A stretch of DNA of 15,722 bases from Omnitrophica WOR_2 bacterium RIFCSPHIGHO2_01_FULL_52_10 (lineage in GTDB: Bacteria > Omnitrophota > Gorgyraeia > Zapsychrales > Zapsychraceae). The notes below the pieces were generated by a model. It saw nothing but the letters and a program-made list of their open reading frames with translations, was not told where the DNA came from and did no database searches. How positions within the stretch are numbered: position 1 is the first letter of the stretch; the number at the start of each line of letters is the position of its first letter. A program made the translations under genes and the position numbers. Where the stretch lies: NCBI GenBank assembly GCA_001805565.1, contig MHGM01000008.1, forward strand, positions 1-15,722. Reading direction: 5' to 3'. Positions 3 through 1,933 of this stretch are shown one piece after another.

Positions 3-812
3 CCCGACGCTTCGTTTGTTAAAGAAATGCCCCCGTTTGTAAAGTTGCATATCGCGTCAGCCTGGGTATTAATCATGTTTTTCCCCTTTACGCGTCTTGT
101 GCACGCTTTTTCTGTGCCCTTGCATTATTTCGTCAGATCTCCGCAAAGGGTTGTTTGGAACAGTTCACGCTCTCAAGTTCGTTTTGAACAAAAAATTCAG
201 TTTGATAATGAAAAACGTTTGTTCCTCAAGGCCGCCTTTGGCGCGGGGGCTTCGGCCGCGCTTTTATCCCTGGGCGTATTGGACAAGTTTTTCAGGTATT
301 TTCTCAAACAGGACCTGACCAATGCCGAGGAATCGCATATCCTGTCCCAAAAGCTGCAGCGCCTGAAACAGTCTGCCGCCGAGCGGGAGCTGGAACTTGA
401 GCGGATGAACAAGGACAGTATTTTCGTCGCCAGACTTTCCGAGCTTTCGAGTACCCGAGGAAAATATTTTATTGATTACCAGATGAGGCCGGCGCTTGCG
501 TTTCGCGATGAACGGGGACTGCCGGTCCTTATATCCGCCAAATGTACGCACCTGGGCTGTACCGTCGGGCAAGATCTGGATGCTCAAGGACGCATCCTGT
601 GCCCGTGCCATATTTCCTCTTTTGATATAAGAACAGGGCAGCCGACTCCCGGTTCACCGGCAAAATCACCATTGCCTCATTTAGGCTGGGCCTTAAAAGA
701 TGAACAAGGAAATCCGTTGATGGTCCAGGGCCCGGAGGGAAAGCGGGAAGGGGCGGTCGACTCCTCCCAGATGGAAAACAGTCTGCTGTTTATCGTCAAG
801 CGTTTTAGTTGA
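3..812 (+). CDS. NarI C-terminal helix fused in frame to a Rieske iron-sulfur protein (5' end outside window)
   Basis: The frame is open from the window edge; the first ATG is at 27 and residues are numbered from it. Residues 4-44 match the last helix of nitrate reductase gamma subunit NarI. They include PFTRLVH, and His8 and His26 are 18 apart, the spacing of the last two haem-b ligands of E. coli NarI. After a short basic linker comes a Tat-like KRLFLK (63-68) and a membrane helix (about 69-85). A charged, probably coiled-coil neck (about 98-130) follows, then a Rieske domain with CTHLGC (173-178) and CPCH (192-195), the 2Fe-2S ligands. No stop or good internal start separates the halves; only a TTG at 219 without a Shine-Dalgarno site could start a separate Rieske protein. 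NarI ends in the cytoplasm, where a Tat signal must begin, so the topology fits. narGHJ probably lie upstream (inference). Confidence 0.85.
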   Translation, partial: PDASFVKEMPPFVKLHIASAWVLIMFFPFTRLVHAFSVPLHYFVRSPQRVVWNSSRSQVRFEQKIQFDNEKRLFLKAAFGAGASAALLSLGVLDKFFRYFLKQDLTNAEESHILSQKLQRLKQSAAERELELERMNKDSIFVARLSELSSTRGKYFIDYQMRPALAFRDERGLPVLISAKCTHLGCTVGQDLDAQGRILCPCHISSFDIRTGQPTPGSPAKSPLPHLGWALKDEQGNPLMVQGPEGKREGAVDSSQMENSLLFIVKRFS

Positions 813-823: not shown

Positions 824-1933
824 GTGAGTAAACCAAAGAATGGATTTTTGAAAATAGTTGATTTTTTCTCTGAGCGGATCCCATTTTATAATCTGAATTT
901 CGAACATATGGTCACGAAGAAGGAAGTTCCGGTCCATCGTATGAGCTGGGCTTATTATACGGGGGGGCTTACCCTTTTATTCTTTTTGATCCAGCTGGTA
1001 ACGGGTGTTTTCCTTTTATTCTATTACCAGCCGACGGTCAGCGATGCGCACGCTTCGGTGGAATATATCACATTTTTCGTCAAAAGCGGCTTCCTGATCC
1101 GCAATTTGCACACGTGGTCCTCTTCCTGCATGATTCTTTGTCTGCTGGTGCATTTGATAACATCGTTCGCGATGAAAGCTTTCGCCCGTCCCAGGGAAAT
1201 AACGTGGATTAGCGGGGCGATGCTGTTGATGATAACTTTTGCGTTCGGATTTACCGGCTATCTTTTGCCCTGGCACCAGATTGCGGTTAACGCGACCAAG
1301 GTCGTCTTGCAGTCTATTGAGGAGGCAGGGCATTATCTGCCCGGAGTCCTGGCCGCGCTCCCATCTTATATCAAAGAGATTATTCAAGGAGAAGTTTCGG
1401 TCGGTCAGGCAACGTTAAGCCGGTTTTACGCGTTGCATGTTGTCATCTTGCCTCTGTTGTTCGTGGGGGTGATAGGGCTGCATCTTCTGATGGTTCAGCT
1501 TCATGGAATGAGCAAGGGGGTTGATGAGCCCGCGAAGAAAAGCGAGAAGTTTTTTCCATTTTTCATTCTGAAGGATTTCTGGCTCTGGGGCGTTGTATTT
1601 CTAATTGTTTTTATCCTCGCGCTTTGCCTGCCATTTGAGTCTTTTTATTCATACCCTTTATTTGAAGCGTACGACGCGCTGGGTTCTACCCCGGACGGGA
1701 TTAAGCCGGAGTGGTACTTTTATTTTGTCTACTATCCGTTGGAGATCTTGCCTTTTTGGGTGGTTATGTTGGGTATGTCCATTTCCGGGGTTGGGATATT
1801 TTTCGTTCCATGGATATTTAAGAACACCAGCCGCAAGGTCCTTTCGATCATCGCCTGGATCATGGCGGCTTATTTGATTGTCATCACGCTTTTTGGTCAA
1901 TTGATATATGAAGTCTTCACGGGGCCCAAGTAA
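824..1933 (+). CDS. Cytochrome b of a bc-type complex (b6 and subunit IV in one chain)
   Basis: This is the dihaem, quinol-oxidising membrane subunit that partners the Rieske protein. With the GTG start it has 369 residues. Haem ligand pairs are His96/His110 in helix B (13 residues between) and His205/His220 in helix D (14 between). The 14-residue spacing is typical of cytochrome b6 rather than mitochondrial b. FTGYLLPWHQ follows helix C. The C-terminal half carries PEWY (295-298), the Qo-site motif, and three further helices like subunit IV, so the chain is a b6-IV fusion with about seven to eight helices. It begins 11 bases after the Rieske stop and overlaps the next gene by one base, so the genes are almost certainly one transcript. 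Confidence 0.92.
   Translation: MSKPKNGFLKIVDFFSERIPFYNLNFEHMVTKKEVPVHRMSWAYYTGGLTLLFFLIQLVTGVFLLFYYQPTVSDAHASVEYITFFVKSGFLIRNLHTWSSSCMILCLLVHLITSFAMKAFARPREITWISGAMLLMITFAFGFTGYLLPWHQIAVNATKVVLQSIEEAGHYLPGVLAALPSYIKEIIQGEVSVGQATLSRFYALHVVILPLLFVGVIGLHLLMVQLHGMSKGVDEPAKKSEKFFPFFILKDFWLWGVVFLIVFILALCLPFESFYSYPLFEAYDALGSTPDGIKPEWYFYFVYYPLEILPFWVVMLGMSISGVGIFFVPWIFKNTSRKVLSIIAWIMAAYLIVITLFGQLIYEVFTGPK

Follow-up and report, generated by a model that had tools for sequence, protein, structure and literature searches.

The window, by which we mean the whole 15,722-nucleotide stretch analysed here, runs from base 1 of a contig in a draft genome of 0.9 Mb (105 contigs, 59.7% complete). Its first open reading frame (3-812, forward strand) comprises 269 open codons and continues beyond the window edge on its 5' side (ORF listing), the start of NarI being missing because the window begins at contig base 1. 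Pfam searches placed two domains in this frame, the end of the nitrate reductase gamma subunit NarI (PF02665, residues 1-52, profile positions 165-216 of 217, E = 6.5e-13) and a Rieske domain (PF00355, residues 141-224, E = 1.8e-8). The in-frame NarI-Rieske fusion proposed in a first-pass annotation of the same DNA is real, since both domains lie within one open frame and the arrangement recurs in other assemblies. Two histidines 18 residues apart (residues 16 and 34, nucleotides 48-50 and 102-104) align with His187 and His205 of E. coli NarI, in agreement with the haem-binding helix that this annotation had recognized. The features of the frame and of the two genes behind it are given in Table 1.

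Table 1. Coordinates of the NarI-Rieske frame and the following operon genes in the window.
Feature	Coordinates	Strand	Basis
NarI C-terminal end, last membrane helix TM5, 5'-cut by contig edge	3..158	+	PF02665, alignment to E. coli NarI
K/R-rich cytoplasmic linker ending in Tat-type motif KRLFLK (nt 213-230)	159..230	+	family charge, motif counts, W218/R238
Sixth membrane helix, weakly hydrophobic, then positive charges (DKFFRYFLK); approximate borders	231..287	+	hydropathy, predicted helix
Helical neck	321..410	+	AF2 helix P0001 273-302, block pLDDT 80-90
Rieske [2Fe-2S] domain; CTHLGC nt 543-560, CPCHIS nt 600-617	423..674	+	PF00355, ligand counts, Foldseek
Cytochrome b, b6-like, subunit-IV-like C-terminus; PEWY nt 1706-1717	824..1933	+	PF00033 (E 2.8e-42), PF00032 (E 2.5e-5)
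Small protein, one haem-c motif (CAMCH, nt 2044-2058), EF-hand-like stretch, C-terminal membrane helix	1933..2520	+	alignment

A homologue listed at 100% identity (P0001, 435 aa) consists of a whole NarI followed by the Rieske part, and a full-length PF02665 match was obtained in a relative, the protein of locus L003 (profile positions 1-215 of 217, E = 4e-58). The family hydropathy profile displays the five helices of NarI, a further peak at P0001 residue 249 and, in the interval separating helices 2 and 3, a weak additional one at residue 82; positive charge is concentrated in P0001 residues 201-239 (family-mean K+R of 7.5). The AF2 model of P0001 (pLDDT 83.2, pTM 0.51) comprises a predicted helix at 221-266 (block pLDDT 61-79), the neck helix and a beta Rieske head, and bears out the membrane helix and neck that had been read from the sequence between the two domains. 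Foldseek matched the model to E. coli NarI (E = 4e-11) and, in separate hits, to Rieske proteins (E from 4e-5). By ligands and fold, the fused chain is a member of both the NarI and the Rieske families.

The hydropathy and charge profile fits a topology in which NarI ends in the cytoplasm and the sixth helix brings the Rieske domain out, and we regard these chains as probably Sec-Tat dual-inserted proteins. They share with the actinobacterial Rieske protein and Sco3746, as these are described in the available text of PMC5449189, several Sec helices, the Tat motif, a final helix of low hydrophobicity followed by positive charges, and, as predicted for the fused chains, an exported cofactor domain; here, however, the Tat helix is preceded by the five haem-b helices of NarI, and the fused family is not among the proteins treated in that text.

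In every one of the 28 loci examined, the window included, a b6-like cytochrome b gene lies downstream on the strand of the fusion, with an aligned gap of -15 to +194 nt; among them, the sequence of L017 starts only in the linker ahead of the sixth helix, and the frame of L002 is interrupted by a stop at codon 288. The listed ORF of the window's cytochrome b starts at TTG 809, although translation more likely begins at GTG 824, which is preceded by GAGGAG. Of the solved structures, cytochrome b6 chains match this protein best (E about 3e-49), its histidines 101, 115, 210 and 225 are kept in all 28 loci, and PEWY is present in 21/21 loci reaching that far.

In relatives whose contigs reach far enough, the genes run in the order diheme cytochrome c, narG (about 1210 aa), narH, narJ, narI/Rieske, cytochrome b and membrane cytochrome c. 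In the window the contig edge cuts off whatever precedes the end of narI, and the full NarI in frame after narGHJ, which the first-pass annotation had expected there, was observed in relatives (L003-L007, L009, L010, L012-L016 and L101). The membrane cytochrome c was present in 21 of the 28 loci and the upstream cytochrome c in 16, the remaining stretches ending before those genes. The upstream diheme protein is homologous to the Thermus cytochrome c encoded before narG (27% identity, E = 4e-16), and the NarG N-terminus of L003 carries no twin-arginine signal. In the small membrane cytochrome c, C38, C41 and H42 are invariant (10 aligned sequences); the window copy has no Pfam match, and a fold search with its model (pLDDT 81.7, moderate) gave no useful match (best E = 3.3). 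No homologue of cytochrome c1 or f was found in the operon, whose c proteins match generic cytochrome c, the TSP3 repeat only, or nothing, and the small membrane cytochrome c is a candidate functional stand-in for cytochrome c1/f. It also shares with its relatives the conserved stretches SPILN and DLDGDGIPD.

In one related locus, 92% identical over the NarI end (L018:9503-11979), the Rieske domain, cytochrome b and membrane cytochrome c are all gone, leaving a NarI of 233 aa. This state is either a natural reversal or an assembly fault; unless the assembly is at fault, the joint loss fits a functional unit. Behind this shortened NarI lie a 469-aa frame and a MOSC-like gene.

Conservation and distribution of the fused family

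The suggested search of proteomes for NarI-Rieske pairs revealed that the fusion had been understated: the fused chains make up a widespread family and are no isolated case. Both domains are carried by 116 of the best 120 homologues listed (of 529), the other four being short and Rieske only, and by all of the best 120 of 750 matches obtained with the Obscuribacter protein, several proteins among the matches listed in both searches being short pieces. According to record titles, related loci come from Omnitrophota (the loci closest to the window), Hydrogenedentota, 'Proteobacteria', Sumerlaeaceae, Cyanobacteria, FCPU426, Verrucomicrobia, BRC1, Obscuribacter and one unplaced bacterium; one match from the search with the Obscuribacter protein is named Acidobacteria. 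No plasmid-borne fusion was found, as none of 42 matching plasmid records covered 80% of P0001, the best being Thermus NarI. Among the matches listed, the fused proteins are mostly named plain nitrate reductase gamma subunit in their sources, which hides the fusion in databases, and a full-text search of the literature (open-licence papers) returned no description of a NarI-Rieske fusion.

The junction (nucleotides 140-230, P0001 residues 212-242) had been flagged as a possible assembly error. This is contradicted by its conservation in 54 aligned relatives, where W218 and R238 are invariant and P213, Q214, V216, R222 and R237 nearly so, and by the continuous fusion elsewhere, including on contigs of 1.6 and 3.2 Mb. 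Given the recurrent fusion and the conserved junction, a separate Rieske start at TTG 219 is likewise unsupported. Motifs were counted in 223 full-length relatives, selected from 236 fetched proteins by a length of 400-480 aa. The Tat-type motif named in the first-pass annotation has KR in the window and RR in most relatives: before the sixth helix, RR occurs in 194, KR in seven, and 22 gave no match by the pattern used. The Rieske domain is complete, as had been claimed, and CTHLGC plus CPCH[VIML]S, with the cluster ligands, the disulphide cysteines and the Ser, is kept in 222/223. The residue after CPCH is V, I, M or L in every one of the 223, and the third residue beyond is Phe in 222. In the light of Rieske mutants in general, a lower cluster potential would fit menaquinol. 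A close relative (L002:1717-3024) carries its in-frame stop (codon 288) in the neck, ahead of the Rieske domain; either the gene copy is broken or the sequence contains an error.

In the window's own phylum, NarI was found in 11 of 285 genomes, as six fused-length frames (the cut frame of the window counted) and five short ones. Three of the short NarIs (L095, L096 and L097; L095:4294-16540) occur with separate genes for a flavoprotein, a Rieske protein, cytochrome b and a six-haem-c protein, all before narG and on the same strand. Pfam confirmed the separate bc-type genes in L095, and these operons represent an alternative arrangement that brings bc genes and Nar together. Like the fused operons, they hold bc components and Nar in one direction as one gene block; they differ in having no fusion, a cytochrome b of 512 aa, a Rieske motif CPCHGSKF and an NAD(P)-type flavoprotein gene in front. 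Of the other two short NarIs, one belongs to a plain narGHJI (L100), and the contig of the other starts near narH (L098). In the phylum of the Hydrogenedentota record (G289), 16 of 68 genomes matched: ten with fused-length frames, all with the Rieske motif and two also with an unfused copy, five with unfused NarI only, and one partial. The phylum of the Obscuribacter record (G298) gave 13 matches in 292 genomes (three fused, three short NarIs, seven partial or weak), and that of the Verrucomicrobia record (G296) eight in 288, two of them fused. In two genomes with both kinds of narI, the unfused gene is followed by a frame with five (L148:2118-2921) and three (L136:1-981) haem-c motifs.

Haem ligands, quinol site and phylogeny of NarI

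The four histidines that bind haems bD and bP, two of which lie within the window, are kept in 130/130 fused NarIs. A different pattern emerged at the position of E. coli Lys86, which we take to be a quinol-site residue. In the fused proteins it is non-polar in 127 of 130 (F in 77, L in 16, V in 12, I in 10, A in 9, M in 2 and G in 1), the other three having R (2) or N (1); in 17 unfused NarIs it is R in 13, K in 2 and Y in 2. P0001 has F there, at a site that precedes the window start. Both sets of counts omit the unfused L107 and L137 and the fused L117 and L139, missed by the pattern used, and the 130 fused NarIs are distinct sequences, some of them close to each other. Because three fused proteins have R, R and N and two unfused ones have Y, the residue is not diagnostic. 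Solved entries among the fold matches of the P0001 model include, by title, NarI-K86A (1y5i), NarI-H66Y (1y5l) and a Q-site inhibitor complex (1y4z).

In a tree of 43 fused NarIs (less than 68% identical to each other) and 15 non-fused ones including E. coli, the fused chains are monophyletic (SH-aLRT 93.2, UFBoot 85) and branch beside Thermus-like NarIs. The surrounding clade is well supported (99.8/100), and its 10 non-fused NarIs all have Arg at the Lys86 position. Taken together, the Arg in these 10 and the monophyly of the fused chains place the loss of the basic residue on the fusion branch, and since the fused NarIs form one clade, this loss may have been a single event. The first-pass annotation had proposed that such a chain would tether nitrate reductase to a bc-type complex. 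The cytochrome b gene directly behind the fusion in all 28 loci is strongly suggestive of such a tether, in what would be a physical complex; the sequence change at the quinol site points to rerouted electrons and not merely to a tether.

Proposed electron route and alternative explanations

In the textbook scheme, NarGHI is its own quinol oxidase and conserves about two charges for each nitrate. We consider it probable, though by no means certain, that NarI-Rieske is a subunit of a respiratory nitrate reductase with its own bc-type complex, in which NarI would have ceased to be the main quinol oxidase. NarGH would lie on the cytoplasmic side, and NarI, with its two haems b and five helices, would end in the cytoplasm; Sec would insert these first five helices, after which Tat would probably insert the sixth and so bring the Rieske domain to the periplasmic side. 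The adjacent cytochrome b would oxidise (mena)quinol at its Qo site in a Q-cycle, and the Rieske cluster would accept the high-potential electron and pass it to the periplasmic haem bD of NarI, directly or via one or both of the operon's c-type cytochromes, the membrane-bound one and the NarC-like diheme protein. From haem bD, electrons would run over haem bP, NarH and NarG to nitrate, with an expected yield of about 4 charges per nitrate versus 2.

The genome that speaks most directly for this route is G283 (88% complete), whose sole Rieske and sole PF00033 matches lie in the fusion operon and in which family searches gave no match to heme-copper oxidase/NOR, cd1 or Cu-oxidase_3, leaving nitrate reductase as the obvious acceptor. 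Against a nitrate reductase with its own bc-type complex we count the 22 of 223 relatives without the Tat motif, the stop in the neck of L002, and the R, R and N at the Lys86 position of three fused NarIs, with Y in two unfused ones and a change that may date from a single event; moreover, the transfer from Rieske to haem bD could be uphill.

Comparable designs are known or proposed elsewhere. In Streptomyces coelicolor, Nar1 requires and co-purifies with the bcc-aa3 supercomplex, and Falke et al., working on spores, proposed a route from bc to haem bD of NarI with 4 instead of 2 H+, while calling it unclear how Nar1 interacts with the supercomplex (available text of PMC7931247). Common to both proposals is a cytoplasmic-side NarGHI fed by a bc complex at haem bD; in S. 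coelicolor the partners are separate, co-purifying gene products (same source), whereas here Rieske and NarI form one chain and cytochrome b is encoded in the same operon. The Thermus thermophilus narCGHJI operon (L031) has the same gene order, a homologous upstream diheme c and a NarI of the same 99.8/100 clade, but in this NarI, which ends normally, Arg occupies the Lys86 position, and neither a Rieske protein nor a cytochrome b is listed in the L031 stretch. Thermus NarC and NarI interact in two-hybrid tests (available text of PMC7694296). The fused operon can be likened in its construction to Thermus narCGHJI with a b6-like complex merged into it, and in its working to the proposed Nar-bc supercomplex. 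The haloarchaeal nar cluster (NarB Rieske, NarC di-b-haem) also links a Rieske protein and a b-type quinol oxidase to nitrate reductase, but there, in the available text of PMC7754194 and PMC4683180, NarGH lies outside the membrane, NarC is no NarI homologue and the genes are separate. With a NarG that lacks an export signal, the fused system is not a haloarchaeal-type Nar, and with no c1 or f in the operon it is not a canonical bc1/b6f either.

The most serious alternative, which we nonetheless judge unlikely, is that NarI still oxidises quinol, that Rieske, cytochrome b and cytochrome c form an ordinary complex III feeding oxidases or nitrite/NO reductases, and that the fusion only holds the two together. 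Of the 20 fused genomes scanned, 16 encode a PF00115 (heme-copper oxidase/NOR) protein, among them the genome of the window; G300, the genome of L018 (without the Rieske half), is left out of this count. Outward electron traffic is thus possible in most. Further Rieske-domain proteins, some short and ferredoxin-like, were found in 15 of 16 genomes scanned and further cytochrome b in 6 of 8, and together with the PF00115 proteins these mean that Rieske electrons could leave elsewhere, which weighs against a nitrate reductase with its own bc-type complex. The NnrS and hemerythrin genes near the window operon suggest NO-related metabolism, and a role of Thermus NarC in conducting electrons outward, from Nar to Nir/Nor, has been proposed (available text of PMC7694296). 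However, a tether of this kind sits poorly with the non-polar Lys86 position of nearly all fused NarIs, as well as with two genomes, G224 and G283 (both 88% complete), that carry the operon and have no PF00115, cd1 or Cu-oxidase_3 match.

A reversed enzyme, in which NarGH would oxidise nitrite, NarI would pass electrons to the c haems, and Rieske and cytochrome b would serve reverse flow to quinone, is highly improbable: a similar cluster with a NarC homologue does serve nitrite oxidation in Nitrobacter (available text of PMC7694296), but there is no heme-copper oxidase match in G110, G224, G283 or G377. Even slightly less credible is a vestigial or structural Rieske domain that stabilises the complex without electron transfer. 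The residue after CPCH, Gly in L095-L097 and V/I/M/L in the fused family, would agree with it, as would the stop of L002 and the lost domain of L018; the near-complete retention of the cluster ligands and Ser, and of the haem histidines and PEWY in cytochrome b, argues against it. Finally, an artefact of a missed stop, an indel or a chimeric assembly joining two genes, which gains some plausibility from the window lying at the end of a contig in a draft genome that is 60% complete, has negligible probability and is refuted by the recurrence of the fusion, large contigs included, and by the conserved junction.

Returning to the nitrate reductase with its own bc-type complex, we incline slightly towards a more specific form of it, in which these operons would encode one integrated Q-cycle enzyme: complex III and NarGHI would be merged by the shared NarI-Rieske subunit, NarI would have stopped oxidising quinol and become wired to Rieske, and the system would have arisen once and spread over several phyla. 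If this is true, nitrate respiration would conserve about twice the energy per electron pair, and energy estimates for it would change in lineages known mostly from assembled genomes. The occurrence of the fusion in several uncultured bacterial groups suggests that nitrate reductase and a bc-type complex are built there as one unit. With the covalent link kept across several phyla and the quinol-site residue changed, the question of a bc-fed Nar becomes directly testable, the link itself offering a sequence mark for such nitrate reductases. The fused chains also add a family of probable Sec-Tat dual-inserted proteins.

Behind the operon, the window holds genes for a SLAC1/TDT-type transporter, a MOSC protein, an Asp/Glu racemase, a hemerythrin, a small ferredoxin and NnrS (window:2510-6907), a nitrogen-oxide neighbourhood. 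At the corresponding position, L003 has two MFS transporters, putatively NarK-like by position. Further along (window:10305-11736), an overlapping gene pair resembles an AbiEii/AbiEi type IV toxin-antitoxin system, the AbiEi match falling just under the Pfam cut-off.
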